This document shows, in pieces, positions 17,335 through 53,267 of a stretch of DNA of 64,000 bases. Below the pieces are notes generated by a model. It saw only the letters and a list, made by a program, of their open reading frames with translations. It was not told the DNA's origin and searched no databases. Origin of the DNA: Deuterostichococcus epilithicus. Taxonomy: Eukaryota; Chlorophyta; Trebouxiophyceae; Prasiolales; Stichococcaceae. The position numbers and the translations under genes are program-made. Within the stretch, counting starts at the first letter, position 1; every line of letters starts with the position of its first letter. Where the stretch lies: positions 682,001 to 746,000 of the forward strand of contig JAVTLE010000015.1 of NCBI GenBank assembly GCA_033439295.1, read 5' to 3'.

Positions 17335-18388
17335 ATGGCGCCCCCGGCTGGTGCACAGCGGGGCCTGCAGCAGCTCACGGCCTGGGTTCAGCAGCACCCC
17401 GCCTGGGTCGCAGCTCTGTTGGCTGCCTTGTACCCAGCGGCCCTCGTCCTTCGCCCGCTGCTTCTTTCAGGGCTGCCTTACGTGCTGGCGGTGTTGGCGC
17501 TGGGCACGGTACGATCAGAGCTGGTTTTCTGTACTAGCAATTCTGGACCTCGTGCAGGGTCCAGTGGTATGCCCAACAGCTGTTCACGTCCAGTGGTATG
17601 TCAAACAGCTGTTCACGTCATCGCGCAGGCCGGCGTCCTGCTGCAGCCAGCGCAGGGCTCGCAGCCGCAGGAGCAGGCGCCTGCGTCCACAGGTCATTGG
17701 CGCTTGAGCTCGCCTCTGTCGCCACTGCCCTTCGTTCTTGTTCACCCCGACCTGTACACCTCGCATAATTCCTGCACAATCATTCCTGCCTTCGCACATT
17801 GCAGTAGAGCGCTCTGCGCACCCAGCAGAGGCGTCTAAGGAGGCAGCGCCACTGCCGCCAGCGGCAGCGGACCGCCAGCCGCACGCGGCCCCGCCCGGCG
17901 CCGGGGCCGTGCCGCCAGCAGGCGCCGGCCCGGCGCAGCCGGCCAGCTCCGAGGCGAGGCCGCAGGCAGCCAAGGAGGCAGACCAGGTCGCGGCTCAGGC
18001 GAAGGCCGCGGTCCTCGATGCGCCCGCCGGCACGCTCCCCGGCATCTCCGGAGAGGCTGACGAGCAGCCCGCTGATGCGGAGCAACCGCAGCCAGAGCAG
18101 GAGCTGCCGTCCGCGGTGAACTCCGGCAGAGCGACCAGGAGCGCAGACACAGCCCTGGCGGTGGAGTCGCCGCAGCAGGCTGCGGACGGCGCTCAGCTGG
18201 AGAGGCAGCCGAAGATTGGCGCCGGCCCAGCAGCGCCCACGGCCGGCGCGGCCACGGCGGCCGCCGCCGCGGCGTTTGCAGCGTCAGAGTCGGCCAAGGC
18301 ATCGCCTGTTGCGGAGGGCAGCCCGGAGCAGCCCGCACCGGTGCCGGCGCCGCTGCCGGCGGATGTGCCCGTTGCAGACAGCCCCCCG
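17335..18388 (+). other. N-terminal extension of METH: hydrophobic segment plus Ala/Pro/Glu-rich linker
   Basis: Three exons encode about 274 residues not found in ordinary MetH. Residues 26-57 are strongly hydrophobic ([15 protein letters not shown] then [16 protein letters not shown]), like one or two membrane spans. They are followed by a long low-complexity Ala/Pro/Gln/Glu linker. The three exons join each other in phase (0, then 1) and join the first MetH exon in phase 0 through a GTGAGC donor at 18389. The alternative is a separate upstream gene, but no stop codon is seen before the MetH exons. Confidence 0.55.
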
Positions 18389-21300
18389 GTGAGCCGAACA
18401 TCCACAGCATTGAGGGCCTCGTCACTTGGGGCCGCGATTCGAGGGGAGCATTGAACAGGTCCTACCGCCCTGACTCTGAGAGGCAACCTCCAGCACAGTC
18501 CCACCAGAAGCGACAGTATTTTTGGACCATAGGATGTCCACCACTTGCAGCCTTTCATCGCTGATGCATGTGCTCCCAGATCGTCGTCGAGGTGCCTGGC
18601 TACAAGGCCTGGGTGGACCCGCTGCAGCGGTCGCCGGCTTTCGGGCAGCTGGAGGCGCTGTTCCAGTCACGAATAGCGTACATTGACGGCGCCATGGGCA
18701 CGTCCATCCAGAAGTACAAGTGAGTCCATTCGAGCACAGCACGTGTGGCATGGCTCCTTTTACCCTGGCGATCTTCTGCTCAGCATCATTTGGTATTGCT
18801 ATCATCCAGGTCGCACAGGGCTCGAGGCGAAATAGACTGGCGATCACTGACCCTGCTAAGCTTGGCAATACTCGTGCTTCCAAGAGCTGCACACGCCAGG
18901 GGATGGGTCAGCATCAGTGCACCTCCCAAGATGCGCAGCCAACTGCAGGGGCTCTGGCAGCTGGCCAATTCTTGAAAGCCTACCAACGCTTGGTCGAAAT
19001 GCAGGCTGGAGGAGGAGGACTACAGGGGCGAGCGGTACGCCAACCATCACAAGGAGCTCAAGGGCAATAATGACCTGCTGGTCATTACTCGACCCGAGGT
19101 GGGCAAGCTCGGCTGGACACTTTTTTAGCAGCGTGCAGCTGCTTGCACAAATCGCTGACCGAGAGCACAGGCCCGAAAGCTGCTGGCTCACAAGCTGAAG
19201 CCCGCAAGCCATTTGGGACCAAGGCAGGAGCTCACGTGGTGCCGGTTCACAATGGGGGTCTCACGGCTGCCGCGCCGCCCTGCCCGCAGGTGATCGAGGA
19301 GATCCACATGGCCTTCCTGGAGGCGGGCGCAGACATTTTGGAGACTAACACCTTCAATGGCACCACCATCAGCCAGGGCGACTACGAGCTGGACATCCCC
19401 GAGGAGGTGGGCAAACTTGCAAACACATCGTCAAGTGCGTCGGGTGTGTTTCTCCCAGGCGGTGTGCGCATGCATGGCATGTGTGTGCGTGCGCTTGTGC
19501 ATGCGTCAGGGGCTCTTTGGGCTCTCCAGGCAAGTAGGCGGCTGCCGCGAGAAGGCTGGGGAAGACCGTGGACTGCTCTGTGCTTTGTGTGGGAGCGCCG
19601 AGAAAGCCCAGCCTTCGCCTTGCATCGTGGCCATGGCCAGCCACACGCAACAGCGGCCGAGGAATGCGCCGCTGCGCAGGTGTACCTGATCAACAGAACG
19701 GCGGCAGAGCTGGCCAAGAAGTGCACTGCCCAATACATGGAGGCACACCCTGGCACCGTCAAGTTCGTGTCCGGCGCCATCGGGCCCACCAGCAAGACGC
19801 TGTCGGTGTCGCCAAGCGTGGAGAACCCCGCGTTCCGCGGCTGCACCTACGACGAGATCGAGGAAGCCTACTATGCACAGGTGCGGTGTTCCTTCGAGTC
19901 GGATTGCGCTGAGGCTTGCATGGGAGGACGGCAGCCAACAGCTGCGCTGCCGGCGGCGCCAATGATGAGACAACCCATGTGACACCCCGTACATGGTTCG
20001 TTGCACTGGCAGTCAGTTGCTGGATAGATACCGATGCAAGCTCTGTGTGTGGCGGCAGGCGGGCGCGCTGTACGACGGCGGCGTCGACCTGTTTCTGGTG
20101 GAGACCATCTTCGACACGCTCAATGCCAAGGCGGCCATCTTCGCGCTGGAGCGCTTCTTCGAGGACAAGGGCATCCGCATCCCGGTCTTCATCAGCGGCA
20201 CCATCGTCGACAAGTCCGGCCGCACGCTCAGCGGCCAGACCAACGAGGCCTTCTGGCTGTCCATCCAGCAGGTGGGCCACTGCCTTGTTGTGTCCCGACA
20301 TGCTCCTCCCATTCGTCCCATGTCCACAAGGTTTCACTGTGCATGCCAGTCAACAGGCTGGCACCCATAGGCCGCACCAGATCCTGAGCTGCAACGCGGT
20401 CAAGCTTTCGTCTCCTTGATCCGCAATAACTGGCAGTGTCGTCATGAGTTCGTGAATGCTGAATGCTGCCTGCCACAGGCGCGGCCATTTGCGGTGGGTC
20501 TGAACTGCGCGCTGGGCGCCTCAGACATGCAGCCATACATCGCCAACCTGGCAAAATGCGCGGACTGCTACGTGTTTGCATACCCCAACGCCGGGCTGCC
20601 CAATGCCATGGGCGGCTACGACCAAAAGGATCACGAGATGGCTGCAGGTGAGCCACTGTTCGGTTGAGCCACTGGCCGCCTGTACTGGAAGGCACTTGCC
20701 TTGGGCTCCAGATGCAGGATGCACTCGAACCATGCTTCAGGCGGGAATTGCACGAAGCCACTGTGCCCTGAACCCCTGATTCCACAGCCAGAACAGCAGG
20801 TTCTCGGTCGCAGCGACATCTGGCTGCACAGCCTGCCTGGGTTGCCTGTCTTCCTTCCGGCCGACACGGCTGCTCTGGGATATGAGCCTTCGACTGCCTC
20901 AGCGCCACGAGACTCCATCGCCTGGCGGTGGTGCTTGTGCAGAGGTGAAGCCGTTTGTGGAGGCAGGCCTGGTGAATGCGCTGGGCGGCTGCTGCGGCTC
21001 GCGCCCCGATCACATCGCCGCCATCGTCAAGATGGCCACCCCGTGCGTGCTCGCCTTCCTCCTCTTGCAGCCACTCCCTTGGTTGGGTCCTGTCACCTGT
21101 CAATGGTAGGGCTGCCTTCACGTGTCACTCCCTCCGTGGGCTGACACAGCCAGCACAAGGTGAAGCATGCCATCGACGACGGCCTCCCTTGGTCGACTCC
21201 TGAAGACTCCGCAAGCATCACATTGCTGCGGCATCCTCCCTGCAAAGCCAGCGAGCCTCTGATGCCTCCCACACCGCCGCAAGGTCACACATCGAGCTGC

Positions 21301-24300
21301 TGGTGCGTCATGCTGTAGGCACATATGCTGTGCTGAGACACCACGCCCTCTCGATCCTCAGGTTCCCGCGGAGGGAGAAGCACGGCATCGAGCCTCTCAT
21401 GCGGCTTTCCGGCCTGGAACCGATGGACTACCGCCCCAATGCCGATGACATGCGGTCCACCTTCCTGTACATTGGCGAGCGCTGCAATGTGGCCGGCTCC
21501 AGCATCTACAAGAAGGCCATCGTGGACGGCAACTATGACAAGGCGCACTCCATCGCGCTCAAGCAGGTGGGCCCTGGACGCTACCTCATGCAGACCCTCG
21601 CGATCAGGCAGAGCGGTCGTGCATGCCACCGTCAGAACCTGGTGTGCGGAGGCATATGAGTGGTGAGCGGGCAGCTGTTGGCAACAGCTTGCCCTTGGGC
21701 TGCAGCCTGGGTGTCTGCGCACAACTGCACATCTCGTAGTGCCTTCCTGCTTCTGCAAACGGCTCACAGCAGAGGCTCCTTCTGCTCTGCCCTGTACAGC
21801 TGTGCCGAGCTCTGGTCGGTTGGCAATTGTTTGCGGCGTGGGCCCTGCGCTCGACTGCGTTGCTTCTCCTGTCTCGTGCACAGGTGGAGCAGGGCGCCCA
21901 CATCCTGGACATCAACATGGACGATGGGCTGATCGAGGGCGTGCCCGCCATGACCAAGTTCGTCAACCTGCTGGTGTCGGACCCGGAGGTGTCGCGCGTG
22001 CCCTTCATGATCGACAGCAGCAAGTTCGCCATCGTGGAGGCGGGGCTCAAGTGCTGCCAGGGCAAGGCCATCGTCAACTCCATCTCCCTCAAGGAGGGCG
22101 AGGAGGCCTTCCTGTGAGCCCATCTGCAGCCTTTCTGACTTGGCACCCGCAACCATCTGTGCCGGCCATCTGGCCTGCATATAGTGGTTGGCCCAACTGC
22201 TGATGCCCGCGAGACAGGCTATTCGCGAGGAGCTTCCTGGTCGCACGTGCAACGGATGTGCCTCTTGAGGTCTGCATCTGCAGCATCTTCTGGCTGAGCA
22301 GCCATGTGCTGCTTGACTGCAGGCACCATGCGCGCATCGTGAAGAAGCATGGCGCCGCTGTCGTGGTCATGGCATTTGACGAGGAGGGCCAAGCCGCTAC
22401 CCGAGATGACAAGGTGACACACCCCTCTGGCAGTTTAGTGTGTGGATTGCCACAGGCTGCCAGGCACACTGCTCAGGCAGTCCTGAACATACCCAATTTA
22501 CACACCTTCAGTCTGCAGCAAGGGGCGGGCTGCCAGAGACATCAAGGGGCAGATGCACAGTCAGCCCTGACCGCACCCCGTCTGCACACCCTGAGATGCA
22601 GCAGACTGAATGTGCCCACGGCACACTTTCTGTGAGACATCGTGGCACTGCGGTTGGCCTGCGCCAGCTGGCCTGCTGTGACAGATCCATTCGCCTCGCA
22701 AGGTTGCTTCTGCTGCCGTGCCTTTGAGAGTTCCTTGGTTCTGTCAATTAATGCTTCTTCACTGGATGTTTGTGGCGTCGTACACGCTACTTTGACATCT
22801 TCGCTCGATCCTCCTCGCAGGTCCGCATCTGCTGCCGCGCCTTCAAGATGCTGGTGGAGGTCGTCGGCTTCAATCCGGAGGACATCATCTTCGACCCCAA
22901 CATTCTCACCATTGGCACCGGCATGTCGGAGCACAACAACTACGCGGTGGACTTTTTCGAGGCGACTGCCGAGATCAAGCGCTTGTGCCCAGGCTGCAAG
23001 ATCAGCGGGGGCGTGTCCAACATCGCCTTTTCGTTCCGCGGCAACGAGCCCGTGCGGCGGGCCTTCCACTCCGCCTTCCTGCACCACGCCTGCAAGGTGC
23101 GTGTTGCTGCAGGCTCCCTCCTGTCGGGCTCCGCGCCCTGAGTGCCCCACCGGCTGTGCGCTGATTTTCTGCGCTTTTGCTTCTGCCCATTGCTGCCACT
23201 GCAGCACCCAGCACTCGTCTCCTCCAGCAACAGTTGTCAATGTCCTGGACGCAAAGGCGGCAATCTGTCGAAGCATGACGCAGCCTCGCCCACAGGTCTG
23301 ATGCCGCTTGAACGCTTGCCGTCCTGACCAACGTTTGCCCCGACCGCTCCGCCCCCACTCGTGCCCGCAGGCGGGCATGGACATGGGCATCGTCAACGCG
23401 GCGCACTGCGTGCAAGACGTGTACGAGAAGATCGACAAGGAGCTGCTCACGCATGTGGAGGATGTGCTGCTCAACCGCAGCGAGGACGCCACCGAGAAGA
23501 TGCTGGACTACGCTGCCACACTGGTGGGTGGTCCCTTCGCAGATGCGCTGACTCTTTGCTGGGCTGCCTGACGGCGCAAGGCACCCCGCAAACATTGACA
23601 TGGTCAAATGCTCTCTATAGGTGCAGTTTCGATGGTCTCTTGGCGCGTGGTTGCAAACTCATATCGTATAGACGCATGCAGCCTCAGCAAGCGGCAAGCC
23701 AAACAGCAGTGCTAGAAGCGCGCCAGCTCCTCGGCTCTCTTCACAAATTGTTGGCAATCGATCGCAGGACCCCAAGAGCCGGCCGACGCAGCTGAAGAAG
23801 CTAAAGGAGGAGGTGATCTACACGCCGCGGCTCAACCCGGTGGCCGACGATGTCGACACCCTAGCGCCCGGCGACGACCTGCCGCTTGTCCCCGAGTACA
23901 AGGTCGGTGCCTGGAGTGCACATTTTGGTGCCTGTCAGCTTCAACCCTGTGTCGCTCTGCTGCATCTGAGGCTCCTGGTGCCGTCCCTGACGCTCTGCAT
24001 GTGCATGTCAGAGCCGCTGCCTTTGAGCAAAACGTTTGCAGAGCTACTGGTGGCGGTATCGAAAAGAAACCCTGTTCGAAGCTCCTGGTCTGACAATCGC
24101 TGTAAGATGCTGAGGTGAACTCTCCGCAGGTATGGGAGGACCCGCTGCCCAAGTCGGAGGCGTTTGGCCAACTGGAGGAGCTGTTCGAGTCGCGCATCGC
24201 CTTCATTGATGGCGCCATGGGCACCTCCATCCAGAAGTACAAGTAAGCTTCTGACCTGCCGCCGGCAGCCCAACAGTGCAGCCGGCCCTTGGTCCGCATG

Positions 24301-27300
24301 CCTGGGCGTGCAGCCACACAGAAGTATGTGTAAGCCATGCAGCCATGCAGCTGGATCTGATGTGCAGCCAGGCCCTTGGTCGACATGCAGCCTTTGACTG
24401 ATAATGTAGCAGCTCAGCAGATGTGCTGATGTCCACCATGTGTGTGTTGCAGCATACCCAGCCTCTTCAGCGCATGCTCTGTGCGCTCTGTTGTGCACTC
24501 AAGGTTGTGAGTTTCCCATGCTCGGCCCCCTTGACGTCAGTCGGAAATCTGCGGCACAGGCTGGAGGAGGAGGACTACAGGGGGGAGCGGTACGCCAACC
24601 ACCACAAGGAGCTCAAGGGCAACAACGACCTGCTGGTCATCACCAAGCCCGAGGTGCCTCCTGCACCTGCCTCGCATGCGTAGACGCCTGCCGGAGACAA
24701 GACCCTTAAATTTTCAAGGGCAACGGATGCTTTTCTGCGAGTGCTGCAGCGGCGCTGGGGTTCTGTGGCGTACGGCGGCGTGTCCTGACGCTGACGGCGG
24801 CGCTGGGCCTGCGACCACAGGTGATCGAGGAGATTCACATGGCATTTTTGGAAGCCGGCGCGGACATCCTAGAGACCAACACCTTCAACGGCACCACCAT
24901 CAGCCAGGGCGACTACGAGCTGGACATCGAGGAGGAGGTGCGTGTAATGAGAATCAGAACGAAGGAATCAGGACTCAGATCCAGCTTACAGTCTCAGGGT
25001 ATTGGAACCGCAGATTGTCAATTGAGCAGCTCGAAGTTGCAAAGCAGGTGCACATGGCAGCAGCAGCCTGCGACAGCCTGTGCATGTGTGTGCACACCGC
25101 TACCTGCCTGCCAGTGCTGCAGGCGCAACTGCAGGCGATGCCGGGCCAAAGACAGCGCTCCTGCTTTGGCGCAGCCCCCACATTCTCACCCTTGTGAACC
25201 TCGCTTGAGGGATTGGGACTGCACGCTGCGTGCAGGTGTACCTGATCAACAAGACCGCTGCGGAACTGGCCAAGAAGTGCACTGCCCAGTACATGGAAGC
25301 ACACCCTGGCGAGCGCAAGTTCGTGTCTGGCGCCATCGGGCCCACCTCCAAGACGCTGTCGGTGTCGCCGAGCGTGGAGAACCCCGCGTTCCGCGGCTGC
25401 ACCTACGACGAGATCGAGGCGGCCTACTACTCCCAGGTGTGTGATCCGGTCACGGACAAGAAGCGATCTGTGCTGTCTCAGGGTCTGGCGAAGTTGCAGT
25501 CTCTTATGTTGGACGAAAGCCGGACGTGGTCAGCTTGCTCCAGCCTGTCAGTCTCTGCCTGTCGCGGCAGCACCAAGGAGCCCCTGTTGTTGCCGCACTA
25601 GTATACATATAAGTGTGGCCAATGCATTGAGGCGCGTTTCTGTCCGTCGCTGGGCCCTGGCGGTGCCCTGGCGCCTTTTTGCTGTCAAGGCAGCCCGATT
25701 TGCTCGTCCACAAACGCCGCAGGCCGGCGCGCTGTACGACGGCGGCGTCGACCTGTTTCTGGTGGAGACCATCTTCGACACGCTCAACGCCAAGGCGGCC
25801 ATCTTCGCGCTGGAGCGCTTCTTCGAGGACAAGGGCATCCGCATCCCGGTCTTCATCAGCGGCACCATCGTCGACAAGTCCGGCCGCACGCTCAGCGGCC
25901 AGACCAACGAGGCCTTCTGGCTGTCCATCCAGCAGGTGGGCCACTGGCGGCTCTGCCGCCACAATTGTTGCATATTTGCCCCAAAGCTATATATCTCGTG
26001 GTTCCTGCTGGCTATGGGCATTCAAGCAGGAGCTTCATGTGAGTTGTGCCGCCGACATCATGCACACCAGAATGACACCATGAAGTATTCTAGCTTTTTA
26101 TTCGAGCGTTTCTGCCTGCCTGCACCAGGCGCGCCCGTTTGCGGTGGGTCTCAACTGCGCGCTGGGCGCCTCAGACATGCAGCCGTACATCGCCAACCTG
26201 GCAAAGTGTGCCGACTGCTACGTGTTTGCGTACCCCAATGCCGGGCTGCCCAATGCCATGGGCGGCTATGACCAGAAGGCCCACGAGATGGCGGAAGGTG
26301 GGCTTGCATGTGTTCATTATATGGGCGCCGTGACACAGAGGGACACTGGTTTCGCATCTCACATTTGCATGCAACAAGATATGTCTTGAGGTGTTTTTGT
26401 GCATCGACGATGTGGGCCCTGGGCTTACTGCACAGCCGCTCCGGGTTGCAGGAACACCCCGCCTGCCTGTGCTGCATCGTTTCTCATTAACACGTTGATG
26501 GACCCATGCGCTGGGCAGTCGCTTCCTACGGGTTGCAGTGCATCGACCCTCAATTGCATGGTTGGCGTTTACGCAGAGGTGAAGCCATTTGTGGAGAAGG
26601 GCCTGGTGAATGCGCTGGGCGGCTGCTGCGGCTCGCGCCCCGACCACATCGCCGCCATCGTCAAGATGGCCAGCGAGTGCGCTGTTTGTGCTTCTCCTTG
26701 GATCCTCTCCTCCTCTGTCTGTCACGTTGCCGTCAACAGTCGCCCGCCAGACATGCCTGCTCGTAGGAGGCGGACTTGTGCTTCTGATGGCGGGAAGGGT
26801 CGATTCCTGTAAGGCCGGCCATGTGGATGACATCCGCAGCTGCTGCTGCCCTCCAGACACCGGACAGACTGCCTGCACCCTCGCCGCAGGTTCAAGCCAC
26901 GCAAGAAGCACGGCGTGGAGCCGCTCATGCGGCTGAGCGGCCTGGAGCCCATGGAGTACGTGCCATCCGCCACCGACCACCGGTCGACCTTCCTCAACGT
27001 CGGCGAGCGCTGCAACGTGGCCGGCAGCATCATGTACAAGAAGGCCATCGTGGACGGCGACTATGACAAGGCGCACGCCATCGCGCTCAAGCAGGTGTGA
27101 TGAGGCAGATGGCACAGCCAGGCAGGCTAGCAGTTGACTGCAGAAGTTGTGGGCGACGCTGTGCCAAAGCATTCGCAGACACCTTGTAGGCGCATTGCAG
27201 GGTGCGATGTAATTTTCGGCCCTGCACAAAGCACAGCTCGCAGTGATGCAACATGGCACACTGAGGAACTCGACTGCTCCATCCAAGCCGCGGCGTCTGC

Positions 27301-28279
27301 CTCTGCATGGAAAGTTGCCCTGAACGAGCCTGCACGAGGTTTTTTGGTCCAAGCCGGGGAAGCGTCTTCCATGGTGTGAGGAGCAGCACCCTTTGAGGAG
27401 GTATTGACACATTCATGACTTGCAGTCTCGAAGTGATTTCTGCTGTGTCGTCTCGGGCCGCAGGTCGGCCAGAAGGCGCACATCCTGGACATCAACATGG
27501 ACGATGGGCTGATCGAGGGCGTGCCCGCCATGACCAAGTTCGTCAACCTGCTGGTGTCAGACCCGGAGGTGTCGCGCGTGCCCTTCATGATCGACAGCAG
27601 CAAATTCCACATAGTGGAGGCGGGGCTCAAGTGCTGCCAGGGCAAGGCCATCGTCAACTCCATCTCCCTCAAGGAGGGCGAGGAGGCCTTCAGGTCAGGA
27701 AATGTAGACGCCAACTGTTGTATGGCACTGTGCTTGCAGCCTGCCGAGTGCCAACAGACTGTCGAGCTGCCGCTACCCGACGCCGGTTTGCTGTTGTTAC
27801 CCTTGGCTGGCTGGTCCAGCAAACAAGCCCTAGAAGAAGAAGATTTGATTGCTATGCATCGCTCACTATCAGCTGAGTATGTCCGGCTCCTCGGCAGGCA
27901 CCACGCCAAGATCGTCAAGCGGCACGGCGCCGCGGTCGTGGTCATGGCCTTTGACGAGCGGGGCCAGGCTGCAGACTACGACGAGAAGGTGTGTATGGAC
28001 CCATGACTGGTACTCCACACTTCTGCATCGGGCACAGGGCATCCATGTTCGACGAGTCTCGGCTAAATACCAAGCCAGCTGCTGTGTGTGCGTCCCAGAC
28101 TGACCAAGCCCTTTGTGCAGGCGTGACCTGCGACACGCGCACCTCCCGAGTTGACTATGCACGATCTGCTGCGGCGCTCATCCCTGAAGTGCTGACGTGC
28201 TCCGCCGCTGTACCGGCTGCAGGTGCGCATCTGCTGCCGGGCGTACAAGATCCTGCGGGAGGAGATCGGCTTCGACCCG

Positions 28280-28312
<33 letters not shown>

Positions 28313-30508
28313 ATCGGCACCGGCCTCGCGGAGCACAACAACTACGCAGTGGACTTCATCCGGTGCGCCTTCCAACCCCATCAGCTGCACTGGCATGCAA
28401 TCATGCTGACGGGATCAGGCCTGAGTCTTGGCCCCGCCGCATTCACCAACTTGGATTTCCCTCAGTGTGATTCACTGCTTGGGTCCGGTGCATTGTGGTG
28501 CCATCTTGTGATTGTGGACTGGTTGAACACACTCATTCACCAACCTGCGTGCTAGTGGGCTGGTCGAACACACTCGTTCACCAAACTGCGTGCTAGTGGG
28601 CTGGTTGAACACACTCGTTCACCAAACTGCGTGCTAGTGGGCTGGTTGAACACACTAGTTCACCAACCTGCATGCCAAGAAACGCTGAGCTGAACTGGGG
28701 TCTCTGTGCGCAACCCCTGCAGGGCGACGCGCGAGATCAAGCGGCTGTGCCCCGGCTGCAAGATCAGCGGCGGGGTGTCTAACATCGCCTTCGGCTTCCG
28801 CGGCAACGACGCCGTGCGCCGCGGCTTCCACTCTGCATTCCTGCACTACGCCTGCAAGGTGCGTGCTGCGCCACATCGCAGCTGTACGTGAATGGCATGG
28901 TCTGCAGCTATTGTACACAGATATAAAGGCCGCCGGGTACACCTGCAGCGCACTTAGCAGACTTCCGGGCAGCTGCTTCCACGGGCAGCGGGCCAAGGCT
29001 GCTCCTTGCCTCAGATTCTGCACAGCATCACCGCCTGCTGACAGAAGGGACCCTCCACGTGCACCCTCAGACAAGACTGTTCAAGTCAAACCCCCCTTCC
29101 CGGCCCTGGCCCCACCCTCACCCCTCGCAAACAATACACTCAACCCTGAAATACTGCGCGCAGGCGGGCATGGACATGGGCATCGTTAATGCGCTGCACT
29201 GCGAGTCCGACAAGTACGAGAAGCTGGACAAGGAGCTGCTGGGCTTCATCGAGGACGTGCTGCTGAATCGCTGCGAGAACGCGACCGAGCGCATGATGGA
29301 GTACGCCGCAACCATCGACCCCAAGTCCAAGCCCACTGCCGTTCGCAAGCTCGGTGAGGAGCCGCAGCGGCGAGTTTGCTTCCGGATTTTGCCTCCTGTG
29401 CCAAGGCCCTGCCGCCATCTGCATGTGCGGTGCGGCGCTGTACCATGGCTCGTGCAGCGCCGGTGCACATTCGTGCATCTGCTTCTGCGCTCCGGACACC
29501 GTCGCAGGCTGTCCCACACGAGCAGCAACCCTTGTCGCCACTCTGATACGCGGTGCTGAGGCAGTTTAAAGGCACCCCATCAAGATTCCAAACCTCCGCG
29601 CATGATTCCAACCGGCGCAGGCGAGACGGGCGGCGGCGACAAAGCGGGCCCTAAGGCGGCCTCGTGGCGCGACGAGTCGGTGGAGAAGCGTCTGGCGCAC
29701 GCCCTCGTCAAGGGCATCGACGAGTTCGCCGTCGTGGTGCGCAGACAGATCACTTCTAGCCCGGATGCTCACGTGAACCGCCCCTCTGGCAGCTGGTCGA
29801 CTCCACTCCACCGTTTTTCCAGCCGCTGTTGGCCTGCTGCCAACATCCACCTTTGGCGGTGGCCCACACCCAACTGCGCCGTCCTCACGCCAAAGCCTGC
29901 ACATGATCATCGCTTATGGTGGCGATCGACAGCGGGTGAAGGGTCAACATGTGAAAACTGAGGAGGCGTTTGAAAGCGTGTGCGGCTGTGGCGGCAGGAC
30001 ACAGAGGAGGCGCGGACGTGCGGGCGGTATGACGAGCCGCTGCGCGTGATCGAGGGGCCACTCATGGACGGCATGAACATCGTCGGCGACCTGTTCGGCG
30101 CCGGCAAGATGTTCCTGCCCCAGGTGCACCCGCCGCCTGGCCCGCAATCTCACATCCGCTTGGGCCAACGCCAAAGCTGGTGACTGCTGGTCGCTTCCTC
30201 GTCCGTTTCCAGGCTGTTGCGTGGAGCGTTCCATGTGTCCCTCCCTCCAGCAGCTGGCATGCCGTGCGAGGCACCGGCAACGCACCACCCGGGTCGCACA
30301 GCCCAGCGCATCTTGGCTACAAACCAGGATCCACCTGCTGCAGGCAATGAAATGTTTGGATGGATGGTCGCTTGAACAGGTCATCAAGAGCGCGCGGGTG
30401 ATGAAGAAGGCGGTGGGACACCTGCTACCGTACATCGAGGAGGCGAAGAACAATGCAGGCGGCGTGGCCGGCGAGGACGACAATGCAGGCGTCATCATCA
30501 TGGCCACC

Positions 30509-30552
<44 letters not shown>

Positions 30553-33500
30553 CGTGCTCGGATGCAACAACTTCAAGGTGCCTGCGCTGCGGCAATATCG
30601 ATCTCCTTTTTCTGATCCCATATCAGCTCGGGGCTTACAAGAGTCGTTCTGGTTCGCGAGACTCAGTTTCAGCAGCTGTCCGTGTAGCAGCAGCTCCTGC
30701 CGGGTGCACACGTTCGCCTGCCATGCAAGGCAGATCCGGCAGAGGGCACGAGGAAAACATGCCGCCGGCATGTTGCAGGTCATTGACCTGGGCGTGATGA
30801 CGCCGTGGGAGAAAATTCTCGACGCGGCGGTGGAGCACAAGGCGGACATCATTGGGCTCTCGGGCCTCATCACGCCCTCGCTCGACGAGATGGTGACGGT
30901 CGCCAAGCGCATGGAGGAGCGGGGCCTGAAGCTGCCGCTGCTGATCGGCGGCGCGACGACCTCGAAGATGCACACCGCCGTCAAGATTGTCACCCAGTAC
31001 TCTGGTGCGTGCACCACGCCAAACAAGATGCCAAACTCCGGCAGTGGTTGCTGGCCATGTGTTTCTGCAGGGCGCTGCCTCTGCATTCTGACTTCCCACT
31101 GACCTCCCTGCACAAGTAGATTTTCTGTGGTGATTGCGCGTCATCTATTGATGTGCTGAAGTTCGAGGCCAATGGCGCATGTCGAATGGCATCTCAAGGC
31201 GCCGTGCGCCGGATATTGTGCAACCAGAGCTGCACAGAGATGCTGCTTTGTAAGATCGAAGTTTGGCGCACGGCGCTCGTGCAGAAGCTGTGGCAAAATA
31301 GATGCTTGTCCTATGCCTGGCGCTCCTTGCAGGCCACTGTCACTGGGCGTTGCCGTGCCGCAGCGCCGCAGGCAATCGTGCTGATGTGGCGCTGGAAGGC
31401 TCCTGGAGACACCTGCCCACACACGCCTGCAGCTGGCCTGTCATGTAAACACAAATGATGTCCTGCACCGCAGGCCCGGCGGTGCACGTGCTCGACGCCG
31501 CCCGCAGCGTGCCGGTCGCCCAGGTGCCGCCCTCCGCGCAGCGGTCGCACCACACACAACATCTCCCCAAAACGATTCAGCCGACTAAGCCCCCCCCTGT
31601 TCACTGACCCGCCGCCGTCCCCTGCTGCCGTGTGTGCGGACAGGGCCTGTAGTGTATGTGCTCGACGCGAGCCGCAGCGTTCCCGTGGCCCAGACGCTGC
31701 TGGACAAGGCGCGCGGCCCGGGCTTCGTGGAGGATGTGAAGGAGGACTACGCGGAGATGCGGGAGGAGTTCATGGCGGGGCTAGAGGACCGGCGGTACCT
31801 CACCATCGGGGAGGCCCGCAAGCTGCGCCTGCAGGTGTGCATTTGTGACGTAACCCCAGCTGCAGAATGAGGTTCCACGTGCATGTTGACGTGTTTGTGT
31901 GCCGTCCGGCTGCACAGGGAGGTTGCCAAGGGCCCATCCGGCAGCCACGGCGCGGCTGCGGCGGCAGTGAGGCCCTCTGCAATAATGCAGAGCATGTGTT
32001 GCAACGGGAGCATCATTGCTCCGAAAATCTTCTCTCAGCGGATACTTTGTTGCCCGCCGAGGTGTCGTGCTCAGCGGGCTGGAGCTCAGCGTCCGCACCT
32101 CTCGAACGGGCTGGTCTCACTGATCGCTTGCTGTGCGCGGCGTCCGCTAGGTCGACTGGAAGGCGCCGGAGAACAAGCCGGTGACGCCCAAGCTGACCGG
32201 CACCAAGGTGTTCAACGACTTCCCGCTGGATGAGCTGCTGGACTACATCGACTGGAACCCCTTCTTCCAGGTCCCTCTGGCCCTCGCTCACAGCGGCTGA
32301 CTGTTGAAGATTCCGAGCCTCTGGCGCTGTTGCACCGATTGGACACCCTTCTTCCGGGGCCCCTTAGGTTGGCTGTGCATGCATGTCCCGAGTTGCGGAG
32401 GTCATCTGGACCGCTTCTTCCTCTCATGTGCGCCTTGCGGAGCTCCAGAGGCTGGTGGGGTGAAGCTATTCTGCATTGTCGCTAGCAGTGTGGAGCTCTC
32501 TTGACAGCCGCCGGCAGCGTCAAGCCTGCGGAAGTGAGCTCGACTGTGCGACACCCCCAGCTGCCCTGCTGGCTGGGGTCCTCTGACTCGGAGGTGTCGG
32601 CGACTGTGTGCTGCAGACGTGGCAGCTGCGGGGTCGGTACCCCAACCGCGGCTACCCCAAGATCTTCAACGATGAGACCGTCGGCGAGGAGGCCAAAAAG
32701 CTGTTCGATGAGGCCCAGGTCATGCTCAAGGTGCGGTTTCCCGTCGCCTGGCTCTGGGTGTCGATCTCTGATGCGTTTCATGCCGTCACCAACCTCCAGA
32801 GGGCCCGCGGCTACTTCCTGCAACCTGCCTGCACGGCTGTGCTGCTGACGACGCCGCCAGCGCCTGGCCGCTCGCATGGGGACCTCGCGGTGCTTTGTGC
32901 GGCTTCTCTGTGAGCGTCCTGAACCCTTGAAACCTCTTCAACACCTGCACGTGATGCGCCGCAGGAGATCGTGGCCAACAAGTCGCTGCAGCTGAAGGGC
33001 ATTGTAGGCCTGTGGCCCGCCAACGCCGTTGGCGACGACATCCAGGTGCGCCGGGCACCGCAAGCACAGCTGTAGCCTTGGACTCTAGCCTTGGTCTGTA
33101 GCCTGACTCTTCACCTGTCCGCACCCCAACCTTTTGACAATCTCGAGGCTGCACCAAATCTGGCCTGCAACCCTGTGTCTGACGGTGCCGTCGATACAGC
33201 TGGGAACCCGCCGCCTGCTCGACGCTGCTGTGCAAGCGAGCGTTCTTGAGCATGTTCTGCAGTGCTTCCTGTGGAGCTGTGCGCGCACAAGGCACAGGGG
33301 ACCGTGCTGGCCGCCTTCCATGATGGGCGTCAGCCGCATCAGGCTCGCTGGTTGCTCGGGCCTGTGTGCCTGTGGACCGTTTGAATCGCGCATGATTGTG
33401 TCGACGCCTGCGCAGCTGTATGCGGACGAGGCACGGGGCGAGGTGCTGGCCACCTTCCACGGGCTGCGGCAGCAGGCGGAGAAGGACAACACCAAGGAGC

Positions 33501-35286
33501 CCTACTACTGTATGTCCGACTTCATTGCACCCAAGGCGCGCCCACTCTCCGTGTTGCCGCTGCCGTGCGCTGCACCTGCAGGGCCGTGCATTGCAGGTGA
33601 TGTGCTGCGGGTCGCTGGCTGAGCGTTGGGTACGGAAGGGTGATGCGACCCGGGCGTGTATTCAGAACCCACACACAGGCAGGTTGCATGTGCGGCAGTC
33701 GCATGGGCTGAAGCCGACGCACCGCTGGGACTGACTCGCTTGTTCTTGACGTGCGGCGGTATAGGAGTCCGGGGTCGGCGACTACCTCGGCCTGTTCGCC
33801 AATGCCGCCTTTGGCTTGGAGCCCATCGTGGCAGCCTACAAGGCCGCTGGCGATGACTACTCCTACATCATGGCGGAGGCCCTTGCCGACAGGTGCGGGC
33901 TCGTGCATGCTCATGCGCTGTGTGAACAGGGGACCTGGTCAGAGTAAGGACACCACTGTCGTGCACAGCGGCCTCGGGCTGCTGCTGTGCGCGGGGAGGA
34001 GGGGATGGCTTCGCAGCCGCACGGCGTGCCCGCTGGCAGAGCCGTCCAGCGAGCCCGCACAAACGCGCATGCCAGGCGACCCCGGCTGGGGGCCGCCTGT
34101 TGACTGCCTCCGCAGGCTGGCGGAAGCGTTTGCAGAGAAGCCGCACGAGATCGTGCGCGTGGTCAGGGCTGAGGTCTCTCCTCTGGCGGCACATTTGCAG
34201 GCTGGCGGAGGCGTTTGCAGAGAAGCTGCACGAGATTGTGCGCAAGGACCTGTGGGGTTATGCGCCTGACGAGGAGCTGTCCACCGATGACCTGCTCAAG
34301 GTCAAGTACCAGGTGGGTGCTGGTTTCTGAATCACTTTTGGGTGAGATCTGGGCCGAAAGGGTTGAACTTCGGCACAGGACATTCCCCCTACAGTGTTGG
34401 TGAAAGCCGTAGGAGGAGGCAAGGCACATAGGCCAGCATTTTGTGTCACGCCGCGCCTGTCTTCGCAGCCGCTTGCCGATCATTGTCCTGCAGCCAATCA
34501 TTCTGCGGTGCCGTGTGCTCCTGCCGGCGGTCGCCATGCTGAATACATGCTGCCGCCGTCCCTGCAGATGGATAGAAGATTAACATTGCAATACATACTG
34601 CAGGGCATCCGGCCGGCGCCGGGCTACCCGAGCCAGCCGGACCACACGGAGAAGGCTACAATGTGGGAGCTGATGGACGCAGAGGCACAGACGGGCATGA
34701 CGCTGACGGAGTCTATGGCGATGCTGCCCGCGGCGGCGGTTTCGGGCCTCTACTTTGGTGGCGCCCCCTCCACCTACTTTGCGGTGGGTACCCATGTATG
34801 AGACAACCTGCCTCCGCGGAAGGCGAGGGCCCACCGGGACCACACTGCGTCCGTGGCTTGCAAGGCTGGAGGTGGTGGCGAGCAAATAAGCGAAGGAGGA
34901 GGCTGATGCAGCATTGCATTTGGGCTGCAGGTCGGCAAGATCACGGCAGACCAGGTGAGTCCGCCACCCAACAGCATACCAGGGCCGTCCGACGCGGCGC
35001 ACTTTCGGATTGCCACGCGCTTCTGCTCAGGCCACGGCATGGGTCTCGCGGCTTCCAAATCATAACCTGCTGTCGTGGTCACAGGTGGAGGACTACTCCA
35101 AGCGGAAGGGGCAGGAGCTAGAGTTGACGCAGAAGTGGCTCAGCCCCATGGTGAGCTCTTTAATCATCTCACCTGCGCTGACTGAACAGAACTGATTTGA
35201 GCTGAGCTGAACTGGACCCACTTTCTGACTCAACCGAAGCGATGCTTGCCTTTTTGCCTTTTTTGCAGCTGAACTATGAGCCCTGA
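17335..35286 (+). CDS. METH: cobalamin-dependent methionine synthase with duplicated catalytic half (about 2,254 aa)
   Basis: Methylates homocysteine to methionine using 5-methyltetrahydrofolate through cobalamin. Exons read: 17335-17508, 17629-17692, 17805-18388 (N-terminal extension); 18580-18719, 19005-19098, 19290-19406, 19680-19880, 20059-20271, 20479-20647, 20943-21042, 21362-21566, 21884-22113, 22323-22413, 22821-23096, 23371-23523, 23768-23902 (Hcy and folate modules, copy 1); 24130-24242, 24560-24653, 24821-24937, 25236-25436, 25723-25935, 26129-26297, 26577-26676, 26890-27094, 27464-27693, 27898-27988, 28223-28362, 28723-28858, 29164-29353 (copy 2); 29621-29736, 29998-30123, 30380-30577, 30779-31004, 31644-31834, 32151-32270, 32617-32730, 32965-33045, 33416-33535, 33765-33892, 34201-34312, 34604-34783, 34931-34954, 35085-35150, 35269-35286. 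All phases join and the total is a multiple of three. Motifs include VGLNCALG and GGCCGS (zinc Cys) in both copies, [11 protein letters not shown] (B12) and GIRPAPGYP (AdoMet domain). One intron (after 33535) is GC-AG. The exon 1-3 extension is the least certain part. Confidence 0.88.
17562..17619 (+). repeat. 29-bp tandem duplication in METH intron 1
   Basis: CAGTGGTATG-(C/T)C(C/A)AACAGCTGTTCACGTC is repeated twice in tandem (17562-17590 and 17591-17619) with two differences, ten bases before the acceptor of exon 2. Confidence 0.75.
18580..23902 (+). other. METH catalytic module, copy 1 (homocysteine + folate domains)
   Basis: Thirteen exons encode about 708 residues. The homocysteine domain runs from [13 protein letters not shown] (18690) through [38 protein letters not shown] and VGLNCALG to [13 protein letters not shown], giving the three zinc cysteines. 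The pterin/folate domain includes [51 protein letters not shown] and [13 protein letters not shown]. It ends in a linker unique to this copy (about 23785-23902: [16 protein letters not shown] then ...LVPEYK). No motif residue is visibly lost, so the copy looks catalytically competent. Confidence 0.85.
23903..24129 (+). other. METH intron between the two modules, open in frame almost to its end
   Basis: Intron starting GTCGGT and ending CCGCAG. If retained, the reading frame of copy 1 continues for 71 codons to a TGA at 24116-24118, just before the acceptor. No in-frame ATG able to start copy 2 on its own is present after that TGA. Retention would therefore yield a stand-alone N-terminal half and splicing would yield the double-module protein. 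Confidence 0.5.
24130..29353 (+). other. METH catalytic module, copy 2 (homocysteine + folate domains)
   Basis: A second full set of the same domains, starting [15 protein letters not shown], which is homologous to [15 protein letters not shown] at the start of copy 1. The same motifs are intact ([51 protein letters not shown]). Exon lengths and phases repeat those of copy 1 (for example 94, 117, 201, 213, 169, 100, 205, 230 and 91 bases). There is one extra intron at 28363-28722, and one intron present in copy 1 is absent here at 29316/29317. The copy ends with VRKLGE and continues into the cap domain, as in normal MetH. Confidence 0.88.
28516..28676 (+). repeat. 41-bp minisatellite, four copies, in a METH intron
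   Basis: Units begin GGCTGGTTGAACACACTCGT and recur at 28517, 28558, 28599 and 28640 with an exact 41-base period and few mismatches. The array sits in the intron that interrupts copy 2 but not copy 1 of the folate module. Confidence 0.9.
31474..31523 (+). repeat. duplicated METH exon fragment with its own splice sites (possible alternative exon)
   Basis: Encodes [17 protein letters not shown], a near copy of [17 protein letters not shown] at the start of the exon at 31644. It has a GCAG acceptor in the right phase and is followed by a GT donor. Because it ends in phase 0 it cannot join the 31644 acceptor (phase 1). It could join the internal CAG at 31691-31693, so inclusion would replace rather than add these residues. 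Confidence 0.65.
34116..34158 (+). repeat. duplicated METH exon start upstream of the exon at 34201
   Basis: Forty-three bases encode [14 protein letters not shown] (after the completed Arg codon) and match 34201-34243 ([14 protein letters not shown]) with three mismatches. The period is 85 bases. The copy includes a GCAG acceptor in the right phase and is followed by GTGGTC. Confidence 0.7.
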
Positions 35287-35784
35287 GCGAGATCTAACGA
35301 CCAGACAGTGAGTCGAGGCGGCACAGGCGCAGCTGGCGGCTGCCATTCTCTCGGCTGTGCGGTTATTCTGAGGTTACCAGTGCGTTGAGGCAACTTTGTA
35401 CTCCACCCAGAAGAACGATATTGATTTGATCCATCATCGAAAGATGAGATGCAGTGTCAGCTGTAAATTTGGCATCGAAATACAGGCGGCAGACCAACAT
35501 CCTTCACCTGCAACATGCAAGCGGCCATCGAACATTCCATTTCCATGTGCGTAGATCGATGGTATGCCCGTACACATCACAGATCTTCGTGTCGTCGCAG
35601 TACGTAGACTTGTCTACAGAGGCGCTGTGTGCCTCGATCTTGACCAGCGAAGCTCAGCCAAATTTACGTTTGGGTTGTCTTTACATGCTTCATGGTTGGA
35701 GCATTTTAAAGCGGGTATCCACGTCGCGCTTGCCTTGGGAGTTCAGTTCCCACCGGGACCCATCTCTGCACGCCACCACACCAC
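35287..35784. other. intergenic region downstream of METH
   Basis: No gene seen. TGTAA at 35462-35466, 176 bases after the METH stop, is a candidate poly(A) signal. The right part should include the promoter of the aminotransferase gene. Confidence 0.4.
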
Positions 35785-38700
35785 ATGTGCACTGCCAGGC
35801 TATTGAGCCAGCGTTTGCAAGCTCCTGCGGCAGTCCTTGAGCAGGGGCTCTGGCGCCGGTTGTATACACCTGGCAGGCAGAGAAGCATCTACCAGTCTTT
35901 TGCACAGCGGCCCTGCGTCAGCACAATGGCGGCAGGTGCAGTGGCGCCACAGGGGGCCAACCAGCTCGGGGTGCGGGCCTTTGCTTCATCTCGGCCTGCA
36001 ACAGCATCATACTCGCATGTCCCGAGTGCGAGGAATCGACCTGTACATTGAGGGCTATCCGCACAACAGGACCAGGACCCTGCAAAGTTGGCCATGCATG
36101 AAACAGTGACCGTGCGACTGCCGGTGTGCAGACCTCGAGGCGGGTGCAGGTGACGGATGCGCCGGTCATCGGCAAGACGAAGGCGCTCATAGCAGGCGTT
36201 CAGGGAGTGCAGTCGCTGGCGCAGGGTGCGATGTCCGCTGTGCAACGGATGCGGTGCTGTGCTGGCCTGGTAAAGGGGCTAGCACTAGCTCTGCTTCCTT
36301 TATTCTGCTTCGATTGCCAGACACGGCGATCAAGGTGCTCAACCATGCACGACCACCAATGGCAAATCGTGCGCGCTCTGCCGCTGGAGTGCTCACAGCA
36401 GCTGCTTCCAAATGCAGGCATAGTGCACTGGATGCCGCCGCAGGCCGCACTGGAAGCGGTCGCAGCAGCGGCGACCGACCCTGCCCTCAGCCAGTATGGG
36501 CCAGACGCCGGGATGCCCCTGCTGCGGCAGGCTCTCATTAGCAAGCTGGCGGCGGAGAATGATGTCCAACAGGCGAGCCCCTGCGGCACTGCGGCGGTGG
36601 CACCCTTTCACGCGAGGGCACATCGGCATGTGTGGAGGCCGTCTCAGGCAGCACATGCAGGCCACGGGTGCCTGGACACAGCCGATCTTCCAGACCTGAA
36701 GAGCCGCGAAGCCGGTCGACCGCTCGCCCCTCTGCAGTTCGAACCAACATGAGGGTGGATGTGTGAAGAGGCTTGGTGCGGTCCTTTCGCAGGTGGACGT
36801 CATGGTGACTGCGGGCGCGAACCAGGCGTTCATGAACGTGGTGCTGGCCCTGCTGGACGAGGGGGATGCCGCCGTGCTGTTCAAACCCTACTACTTCAAC
36901 CACCTCATGGCGCTGCAGGCGCGCACCCGTGCTCCAATTTGCAACATCTGTGGGGTGCCAGGAAGGCTGCGCTCTGGTTGCCGCAGGGTTCGATTGGTCC
37001 GGCACGCCTCGGACATCGCCTTGCCTGCGGCAGCAAGCCTGGCAATGCACCGGCTGTGCTCGATGTGCTTGATGTATTAGTTCGTGGCTGCAGCTGATCC
37101 TGCATGAGCTTTGCTACAACATGCCGTGTGCAGATGACGGGGAGCGCAAGCAGCGTAGTGTTCGGCCCCTGCGACCCATCCAGCTGGCACCCCGACCTGG
37201 ATTGGCTGCAGCGGGCGCTGCAGGCGCCATCGCCGCCGCGCATGGTCGTGCTGGTCAACCCCTGCAACCCCACAGGCACACTTAGTTCATCACCGATTTT
37301 TGTCATGGATCCTTCTGTAAACTACTTGACAATTCGACCCTTTCACGTTGAACTGGCAGGCAGGTGCCGCGGAGGTCCTGGCGCCAACCTGCCTACACGA
37401 AAGTCGGCCCTCTCCCCAATGCACCAGCAAGCTCGGCGCCCTTGGGCCCGGGCCTCACACGCTGTCAGCAGGCAGCCTGCAGCTTTGCAGATATCGCATC
37501 CCTGCTCGACTGTGGTTGACGCTGTGCTGCCTGCGGGCGTGCTGGTGGACCCCGTCCGTCCCAACTGTGAAGCTTGCCAGCCAGCAGCTTACAGTATGAG
37601 AATCTAATCTTCCTGTGGCATCTCTGCTGATGTGCGCAGGCGTGCTGCTGGACCGGTCTGAATTGGAGCGAGCCAGCGCGCTGTGCGCAGCCGCGGGCGC
37701 CTGGCTGGTAGTGGACAACACCTACGAGCACTTCGTGTACGATGGCGCGGCGCACGCCTGCGTGGCGGGGCCGCACGTCATCAATCTGTTCTCCTTCTCA
37801 AAGGTGAGTGCGCTGCCGGCCTGTATCTGCCAGGCTGGGTGCCGGCGGCGGCGGCGCACGCCTGATGTAGCACTGCAGGGCGCATCTCCGGCGGCAGCCA
37901 GCACTGACCAGCTGCATCGCACATACATCCCAACAGCAACATCTGCTGCTTCGAGGGTCACGCCTGCCCCGCTGTCATCGTGGCCTTGCCCAGCATTGCC
38001 CAGCACTGCCGAGTGGCCTGAAGCAGGCGCGCCTTCGATCTGCAGGCTTATGGCATGATGGGCTGGAGGTGCGGGTACATTGCATACCCCACGCCGGAGG
38101 CCGGCGCGCCGGCGAGTCTTGGCGCGGAGCTCACCAAAGTGCAGGATACCATCCCTATATGCGCGCCACAGGCATGCTCCTGCGCAGCTGGCCGATTTCC
38201 GCTTGGTGACCGGTGACCTGCACACCTTTCTTACTGCACAACAAGCAACGGAGTCCTTCAGGCCACGCTCTGCTCGAAGGGTGCTTGCTGGTCGTTCAGC
38301 TGTCGTGCACTTTGACCTGCTCACTTGACAGCTCCAGGGGGTGGAAGGACCGCTGCTTCCACAGTCCAGTCACCAGCGCACACACACGAGACGGAACAAT
38401 CTACTCGGACTCTTAAGTGAGATGTTGCGCCCCTGTGTGACCGCAGGCAGGGCAGCTGGTGGCACTGAGGGCGCTGGCGGAGGGCCGCAGCTGGGTCACC
38501 GACAAGGTGGCCGCGCTGCAGGGCAACAGGCGCGCTCCTTGCTGACTTCCTCTGCTGTCCCCTTCCTGCGCCGTGAGGCGGAAGAGCCACTGGGGGGCAA
38601 GCCGCGTCGCCGCTGCCTGCGCTGCCGATGTGGCCACCCTGCACTGAGCTGTGCCACAAGCAGTACCCTTCGCGTGTGCTGTGACGGTGCCGATACCTGC

Positions 38701-50900: not shown

Positions 50901-53267
50901 TGCACGTCTCCCGGGAGCAGGCGGAGTCGCCGTCGAGCTCCGAGCCCTGGCAGCTGTTGGCGCGCAGTCCGGGCGGCGCCGAGGGGTCGCTGGTGGCAGT
51001 CCACTCCATCTGGGCGGAAGGCGCAAGGTTGAGCAGGCCGCCCGCCAGGCCGCCGGCGGCGGCGAAGGCGCCGCCCCAGCCAGGGGCGCCGGATGGCGGC
51101 GACCGCGCGTGCGGCCGCTTGACGTGGCGCCCCAGCATCTGCTGCTGCTGCTGCAGCCCCAGGCTCGCCGCCGGCTGCAGGCGATGCGGATAGTGTCTCG
51201 CAGCGAGGCCCGCCAGCTGCGTGCTCGCCTGCATCTGGCTTGCAAAGTGCGCGAGCGCTGAGGGCGGCATGCCAAAGAAGGGGAAGCCCTGCGGCGGGTC
51301 CGCCTGCGGCAGGCAGGAAAGTTTGCCTTATGAGTAGTGCCTAGTGCCACGAGGTATAACAGATAGGAGAACCTCCTTCCTCGCACAAGAGACGCGTATA
51401 CTACTGCCGGAGGAGACAGAGGATAGATGCCTTGGCATTGAGGATACGACCGGGGCGACCGACTGACCTGCAGCTGCGCCTGAGTCGCCTCGTTGGCGGT
51501 GGCCACCACAGCGGCGGCGGCAGCAGCGGCTGCCGCCGACGCCGCCGCTGCGACAGCTGCAACGCCGACATCGACGCCGCCATGGTGGGCGCTGTGATGC
51601 GCCCACACGGGGCCGCCGTGCTGCAAGTAGGGGGCCGCCGCTGCCGGGCCGCCTAGCAGCGCCTGCGCGGGGGGTCCCATGTTCTGAGGCCCAGGGCTGG
51701 TGCTAGGCGCCGACGGCGGGCGGTTAGGCGCCGGTGACGCCACCGAGCCGCTGATGTGCTGCTGCTGGTGGGGTTGCCCATGGTTGTGGTGGTGGTGGGT
51801 CTGACGCAGCGGGGCGTCTGCACAGCCGTCATTGCCGGCGTTTATGAAGCCGGTGCCTGTGCCGGCGCCAGAGCCGCTGACCTCGGGCTCTGACTTTTTG
51901 GGGTATGGCCGGGCCGGCTTGCGCTTGGGACGCGGCGGCGGTATTGTCAGGTCTGTCGGCAGGCCTGCAAGAGAAGGAGCCCTCTCAGCAAAACGGCGAA
52001 TGCTCATTTGGGGGCACGACACCACTCTTTCGTACAGTCCAACCAGAGCCCAGAATGCGGTGTGAACACATGAGGATCGCACCGCACGACTTGTTGCCAC
52101 TGGCTTGCTCGCGCTCCAGCTTTGCGAAAAACTTCTGCGCGTGGCTGCGAATCTGCACGGCCGTCTTTGTGCCGATGTGCTCTGCGTTCGCAACAAGACC
52201 AGAGGTCACAAGTAGTTGCAAATTTGCCGAAACTGTGGCAAATGCATCTGAACGGAATCAACGGAACGGAATCATTTGACGCCATGCTCGCGTAGGGTGC
52301 CTTCAGTATTCCGTTGGGCGTCCGAGAATGTACGGTGACGCAGGGAAGTCACCCTCGATGCGTCGCCAGGCGCGGCCGTGCTCCCGGAGCGCCTCCAGGA
52401 AGAGGGCATGCTCTGCGTCCGTCCACCTTTCCCGCTGCTTCGTGATGGTGTAGGGCTTCCGTGTCTGGGAACAGGCGTCAATAAGCACAGTCAAGGTGAA
52501 AGCCCAGGCAAGAGCAAAGTCCACGCCGGCTGATCGGGCCGAAGTGCCGTTTGTGGCATTCCCGGAGTACGTTGACAGACAGAGCGCGCCCGCTCGCGGG
52601 CTTGGAAGCGACGGCACAGCCCAGAGGACAGTCTGCGAAGGCTTCAGCCGCTGCAGTGAACGACTGCGCAGGGTGGTATGGATCCCAAAGTCCGGAAGTC
52701 CGGCACCTTTTGCTCTCAAAAGCACTGAAAAAGCGAGCCAGGATAGGGCCGAGGCGCGAGCGAACCTCGAGAGGATCCAGTCAACAATTTGAGGCCCCAG
52801 AGGCCAACCGTTGTATCCCGGTGTCTAGAACGCCGTGGCTTGGCCACAGTTTGTATATCCGCCAAAGAGCTATTCAGGGCGCCACGCGGGACCCGCAGTA
52901 CGGCGGGCGGGCGCGGCGCCAGGCGCGGCAAGCACACCTTCGACCGTGCCCGCTTGACCGATTGAACTTTCGACAGAAGTTTTACCCACGCACGCGACAC
53001 CGCCCTGCCGCATTCGCACGGCGACCTCAGCAATCGTGACAAGGCTTGTTATGGGAGCGGAGGCAAGGCGAAGCCGGCGTGACCGCTGACCTTCTCGCCG
53101 GCGCCGCTGTCGGAAGGCGTTGCGCTGGGCGCCCCTTCCAGCCTCGCGCTTGCCGAGCGGGCGTGTGGCAGGCCCAGCTTCCCTGCGTCCCAACCCGCCA
53201 CGGCGCCTCCCCGCTGCGGAGCGGAGGTGCTGTGCACCAGTGGCCTGGCTGGATGCCTCTGCTCCAT
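47933..53267 (-). CDS. single-repeat MYB transcription factor, SHAQKF class, REVEILLE/CCA1-like
   Basis: Nuclear DNA-binding protein. The plant RVE/CCA1/LHY group binds evening-element promoters in the circadian clock. Exon 1 (53267-53091) ends AGEK. Exon 2 (52464-52353) gives TRKPYTITKQRERWTDAEH and RRIE. Exon 3 (from 52181) completes EHIGTKTAVQIRSHAQKFF, so the MYB repeat with its SHAQKF signature is whole. The exon near 51880-51965 encodes LPTDLTIPPPRPKRKPARPY, the proline-rich block that marks the REVEILLE/CCA1 group. The rest is long, Ala/Gly/Gln/Ser-rich with His runs (about 51790 and 49330), reaching a stop at 47935-47933. Total length is several times that of most plant RVEs, mainly low complexity. 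The exon 3 donor is either GT (weak) or GC. An ambiguous base lies at 48215. The start at 53267 is supported by phase only. Confidence 0.78.

Follow-up and report, generated by a model that had tools for sequence, protein, structure and literature searches.

Available portions of two structural papers describe the homocysteine-folate (Hcy-folate) part of cobalamin-dependent methionine synthase (MetH) as a rigid body and state that the B12 module must swing among the folate, homocysteine, and activation sites (PMC10567725; PMC13376404). The human enzyme, MTR, has one Hcy-folate half according to the available portion of PMC13376404, whereas the modeled MetH gene of the green alga Deuterostichococcus epilithicus has two. 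Human MTR (PDB 9ssp and 4ccz) aligns to the second copy of this half together with the C-terminal half of the algal protein (14-1271, E = 0) and also to the first copy, or head 1 (23-663, E = 2.1e-234). From head 2 onward the domain order is the same in both, and linker 2 of the algal gene is longer than that of human MTR in the alignment. E. coli MetH has the same five domains, cysteines, and B12-ligand residues and is 54% identical to the part of the algal protein formed by copy 2 and the C-half; however, it is single-headed (1,227 aa), unlike the algal gene.

The Hcy-folate protein of the PDB 1q7m series is homologous to a head, and the folate methyltransferases 1f6y and 2e7f to the folate part of a head. 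Since these chains comprise 566 and 262 residues, respectively, they are too short to carry tandem heads, and their corrinoid partners are, we presume, separate proteins. Core-MetE, a bacterial core methionine synthase, makes methionine as MetH does, but it is a minimal form of MetE, with methylcobalamin as its methyl donor, and is not MetH, as far as the available part of its description goes (PMC7005905). Algal folate enzymes are the subject of another paper, judging from its accessible part (PMC6451014). The canonical five-domain layout has one Hcy-folate half per chain, and the algal locus departs from it with two halves in one frame. A second head match (HSP) occurred in 0 of 80 bacterial MetH loci, these being the best 80 of 588 relatives.

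Organization of the methionine synthase locus

The genome searched comprised 46.8 Mb in 21 contigs, and the window, i.e., the whole 64,000-nt stretch that was analyzed, corresponds to C13:682001-746000. Exon-level matches to the chlorophyll a/b-binding family numbered 39 in this genome, as befits a photosynthetic eukaryote. Coordinates below are window positions on the + strand unless stated otherwise. A tblastn search with E. coli MetH detected the Hcy and folate exon series twice, at 18646-23544 and 24169-29307, and a single Cap/B12/Act series following both heads, in order, to ~35150. The gene model built on these matches has 41 exons (18580-35286) and a 1,980-residue frame with zero internal stops. 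Copy 1 (18580-23902) contributes 13 exons and 708 residues, and copy 2 with the C-half (24130-35286) contributes 28 exons and 1,272 residues, ending in LSPMLNYEP before the stop codon. Among the 40 modeled introns, 39 are GT-AG and one is GC-AG; their median length is 270 nt (range 118-639), and phases 0, 1, and 2 occur 28, 4, and 8 times. Most exon joins are the top-scoring splice joins. Those set by eye involve the final two copy 1 exons, the junction between the copies, linker 2, and the final three exons of the gene; for linker 2, the join 29353|29621, which ranked second by splice score, was adopted because it matches the copy 1 DPKS exon.

In the spliced frame, Hcy-folate head 1 is followed by Hcy-folate head 2 and one Cap-B12-activation half. 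The homocysteine module of head 1 occupies exons 1-7 (18580-21042; Pfam S-methyl_trans, 2.2e-87) and its folate module exons 8-12, including linker 1 (21362-23523; Pterin_bind, 9.2e-57). The corresponding modules of head 2 lie at 24130-26676 (S-methyl_trans, 1.5e-87) and at 26890-29353, the latter including the start of the linker to the cap (Pterin_bind, 1.9e-53). All four of these domain matches are complete. The C-half has one match each to B12-binding_2 (4.3e-25; linker 2 and cap domain, 29621-30577), B12-binding (1.8e-19; cobalamin-binding domain, 30380-31834), and Met_synt_B12 (1.2e-120; AdoMet activation domain to the stop codon, 32151-35286). The activation part includes a mini-exon encoding VGKITADQ (34931-34954), and the last exon of the gene is at 35269-35286. 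At 34114-34164 and 34199-34312, the intron before one exon contains an incomplete near-copy of the start of that exon, a pattern that duplication of an exon fragment would produce. A candidate polyadenylation signal, TGTAA, which we take to be the signal used by green algae, lies 176 bases past the stop (35462-35466) and is the sole TGTAA within 35270-36200. Thus, tblastn, the splice model, and Pfam together bear out the claim of an earlier note that the N-terminal half of MetH occurs twice, in one frame, before a single C-half. They also support its reading of the order as Hcy-folate-Hcy-folate-Cap-B12-Act, which the DNA encodes under ordinary splicing.

The earlier note had also begun the gene at 17335, and this start was not established. 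A possible N-terminal extension, of uncertain membership, is an in-frame splice combination at 17335-18388 with a weak codon signal. It consists of a hydrophobic exon (17335-17692) with an ATG in GCCACCATGG context, a strong one, and an Ala/Pro-rich exon (17805-18388). These two can be joined in frame to the exon at 18580, but the combination ranks sixth among eight listed (19.0 vs. 19.4 for the best), and the codon score of exon 17335-17692 is lower in its own frame (0.03) than in another (0.21). Searches of Pfam with 58 aa of 17335-17508 and with the Ala/Pro-rich exon returned no family match, and a nearer in-frame ATG lies at 18568, 12 bases ahead of 18580 (upstream frame *CMCSQ). The predicted protein is 1,980 aa without the 5' exons and ~2,294 aa with them.

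Around the gene, exons of a mitochondrial carrier (PF00153) lie on the - strand at 14716-16443, head to head with the methionine synthase locus. A downstream gene at 36400-37300 (+) has an aminotransferase class I/II domain (PF00155, 5.9e-16, matched on a peptide assembled from three reading-frame segments), and the longest frame in the window uninterrupted by a stop spans 714 codons, at 50064-52205 on the - strand.

Across the genome, the five Met_synt_B12 matches listed all fall inside the MetH gene, as does the sole B12-binding match listed; these profile-search lists are lower bounds, with only the best candidates scored. Nine of the ten S-methyl_trans matches listed are in the MetH gene and one is on C18, and the eight Pterin_bind matches listed are divided equally between the MetH gene and C9. 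The seven matches listed for PF01717, presumably the catalytic family of MetE, are all on C5. Since B12 and activation matches were listed only at this locus and PF01717 on C5, the cell seems, from these profile matches, to have MetE plus one MetH, the two-headed gene. The genome search for MMACHC gave one match, below cut-off. In a check of viral contigs for stray algal DNA, a 76-aa folate exon of copy 1 gave 23 pattern matches, none of them a relative.

The junction between the two heads

Between the heads lie a linker exon (23768-23902) and a 227-nt, phase 0 intron (23903-24129). The first 12 residues of the exon match a copy 2 12-mer at 8 of 12 positions, and its 3' end, LPLVPEYK, is identical to the copy 1 entry, VVEVPGYK, at four of eight, a score equaled by 418 of 200,000 random 8-mers of the protein (the draws include both peptides). 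Since its start is like the end of a head and its finish like the start of one, this apparently chimeric exon looks like a bridge from one head to the next. Its in-frame codon score is gene-like (0.43), vs. -0.31 for the intron that follows. By a simple consensus score, the donor and acceptor of that intron (10 and 9.4) compare with gene medians of 10 and 9.6. A scan of the junction for bacterial promoters and terminators found nothing, a result of little meaning in a eukaryote.

As the earlier note had stated, copy 1 has no stop and copy 2 no start: the two share one frame, and reading back from 24130 encounters an in-frame stop after eight codons and no ATG. The note had further described the EYK|VWEDPL junction as a phase 0 repeat of the copy 1 entry, GYK-AWVDPL, and this held only in part. 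The junction is phase 0, with a GT..AG intron, but GYK-AWVDPL is uninterrupted in copy 1, inside exon 18580-18719. Since that entry is continuous inside one exon, the repeat is one of protein and not of intron position.

The locus might instead consist of two neighboring genes, the first for a truncated head 1 and the second for a normal MetH. Read-through from 23902 into the junction intron would then add 71 residues to the first before a stop at 24116. However, 227 nt would have to accommodate the 3' end of one gene as well as the promoter and start of the next, no in-frame ATG precedes the copy 2 barrel, and the junction splice sites are ordinary. Therefore, with a linker exon whose finish resembles a head entry and a copy 2 that lacks an in-frame start, we consider two genes very unlikely.

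A different concern is that one gene might yield mainly an ordinary, single-headed MetH, with a head skipped, or a head 1 truncated by intronic polyadenylation. Skips might run from 18388 to 24130, both phase 0, or from any copy 1 exon to the next homologous copy 2 exon, and since the 11 introns shared by the copies are equal in position and phase, a head-length skip would stay in frame. Such a skip would require an intron of >5 kb, several times the longest of the 40 modeled, and the low dN/dS between the heads (see below) suggests that both are kept. For truncation, the junction intron contains a TGTAA at 24101 that would allow early polyadenylation; but this TGTAA precedes the first in-frame stop, and six further copies lie in five of the remaining introns. 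We regard either outcome as the main product of the locus as improbable. Judged from sequence, it is likely that one chain carries two Hcy-folate heads.

Integrity and divergence of the heads

Both heads retain the GLNCALG and GGCCGS motifs in the spliced translation, as the earlier note had claimed, and the positions aligned to C247, C310, and C311 of E. coli MetH, to which we ascribe zinc-binding roles in the homocysteine domain, are cysteine in each. Each head therefore has a homocysteine domain with three cysteines, predicted to bind zinc. Positions aligned to D757, H759, and S810 of E. coli MetH, presumably the ligand histidine with its partner Asp and Ser residues, are kept in the single B12 domain, so that the cap and B12 domain is predicted to be equipped with ligand and partners, and Met_synt_B12 identifies the AdoMet activation domain. 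Each folate barrel is also predicted to have its pterin contacts, with one exception. The available portion of the human MTR study names R384, N470, D537, N579, R585, and R591 as MeTHF contacts (PMC13376404). Placed manually on the alignments, N470, D537, N579, R585, and R591 are conserved in each head; R384 is replaced by serine in head 1 and by isoleucine in head 2. Five of the six contacts named there are therefore kept in both heads.

For a broader measure of conservation, the best 80 of 588 bacterial relatives were combined with E. coli (81 sequences), and seven short translations were dropped, leaving 74. At columns ≥97% conserved among these 74 bacterial MetH, the consensus residue is kept in the homocysteine domain at 77 of 82 by head 1 and 78 of 82 by head 2, in the folate domain at 95 and 94 of 105, respectively, and in the C-half at 162 of 169. 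Each head departs at 15 such columns, 12 of which are common to both. At columns ≥90% conserved, four losses are private to head 1 (three folate, one linker 1) and four to head 2 (all folate), and five more columns are lost in both heads with different residues. The private departures of head 1 are R348 (Pro in 74 of the 74 bacterial MetH), Y381 (Asn in 72), F528 (Tyr in 72), and F566 (Ile in 71), and those of head 2 are K408 (Gly in 74), G582 (Ser in 72), G592 (Ala in 74), and Y600 (His in 68). Because each head departs privately at conserved columns, the folate site of one head, or of both, could be impaired. Of the 80 bacterial loci, five (L075, L079, L088, L105, and L107) encode only 336-360 residues before a stop that lies near the Hcy-folate boundary, and the relatives-scan match continues beyond it; in these, MetH is perhaps split into two genes.

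The private changes of head 1 (R348, Y381, F528, F566), together with attachment of the cap to head 2, would suit a head 1 that is a non-catalytic or regulatory module, binding folate or homocysteine or stabilizing the chain and never meeting cobalamin. This reading is compatible with one chain and overlaps the two-headed one. However, head 2 has equally many such changes (four vs. four columns at ≥90%), and the zinc cysteines and five of the six folate contacts named in the available MTR text are intact in head 1. We think such a role rather unlikely.

The two heads are 88% identical in protein over 666 codons (dN 0.089, dS 0.380, dN/dS ~0.23; Nei-Gojobori), and their exons differ at ~13-14% of nucleotides. 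Such a low ratio suggests retention of both heads. Eleven intron positions are common to the copies, with equal exon lengths between them, and therefore indicate a genomic duplication. Introns in AVDFI|RAT and at EYK|VWEDPL occur only in copy 2, and one in AATL|DPKS only in copy 1. Ten of the 11 shared intron pairs align no better than shuffles; the exception, intron 6, scored 27 vs. a shuffle maximum of 24, and intron 1 equaled its shuffle maximum. A 41-base minisatellite (28514-28675; four copies, 93% matches) sits inside the copy 2 intron 28363-28722, at a position where copy 1 has no intron.

The general risk attached to a single assembly is that haplotypes or reads are falsely joined, and nothing specific here supports it. 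Against such an error stand the exon divergence, the shuffle-like intron pairs, and introns that differ at three places. With 88% protein identity, unalignable introns, and a dN/dS of ~0.23, a false duplicate is extremely improbable, and we rejected both assembly artefact and pseudogene on divergence and dN/dS.

Divergence between the heads is uneven. Third-position differences at codons for the same residue number 103 of 561 overall but range from 2/70 in exon 5 and 5/70 in exon 9 to 10/23 in exon 10, an unevenness among exons equaled in 0 of 5,000 permutations. Differences between the heads number 45 in the folate part, 15 in the homocysteine part, and nine in linker 1. The simplest account would be that the copies arose long ago by tandem duplication of genomic DNA and that their introns then turned over, with exon-confined gene conversion or strong codon constraint acting as well.

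A proposed model for two heads on one cobalamin

In the model that we propose, the Hcy-folate half of cobalamin-dependent MetH was duplicated in tandem, in frame, inside the gene, and a single mRNA would be spliced across the junction. Head 1 would be tethered to head 2 by the ~59 residues between the end of its folate barrel and the start of the first barrel of head 2, and head 2 would connect to the cap via linker 2. Judged by length, the ~59-residue tether could let either head meet the B12 module. As in normal MetH, the Cap-B12 module would alternate among a folate site, where a methyl group is donated to cob(I)alamin, a homocysteine site, where the methyl group passes to Hcy, and the activation domain, and could use either rigid Hcy-folate head for docking. 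Head 2, as the closer of the two, would probably be the most used, with head 1 serving as a second docking site. Whether both heads are used in catalysis we judge to be an even question.

Exon-confined gene conversion may hold the homocysteine modules alike while the folate modules drift. A tentative extension, which we hold to be possible but doubtful, is that one swinging cobalamin serves two non-equivalent heads that differ in folate form or gating, with the homocysteine sites held alike by selection or conversion and the folate sites diverged. Suggestive of this is the folate-site divergence, which includes the stretch aligned with the folate-sensing loop, where the heads differ at four of nine positions (NAAHCVQDV in head 1, NALHCESDK in head 2). 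However, the available portion of the human MTR study reports no movement of that loop on folate binding, which counts against a difference in folate form or gating (PMC13376404). Specialization of the two heads is conjecture, and an effect on throughput, which the earlier note also raised, is hypothetical.

No MetH with two heads was described in the titles and opening abstract lines of the open-licence papers searched. Our best reading is that this is an architectural variant of MetH, with two heads sharing one cobalamin, that is new within the literature and bacterial loci searched. MetH moves one cofactor among three partners, and its control is under current structural study, as the available parts of two papers indicate (PMC10567725; PMC13376404). 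A two-headed chain, if true, would let one ask whether the number of sites limits docking, whether folate and homocysteine sites of different heads can share one cycle, and what distance the tether can span. It would also be an example of a B12 enzyme enlarged by an extensive in-frame internal duplication, in a host that has a MetE-like sequence as well.
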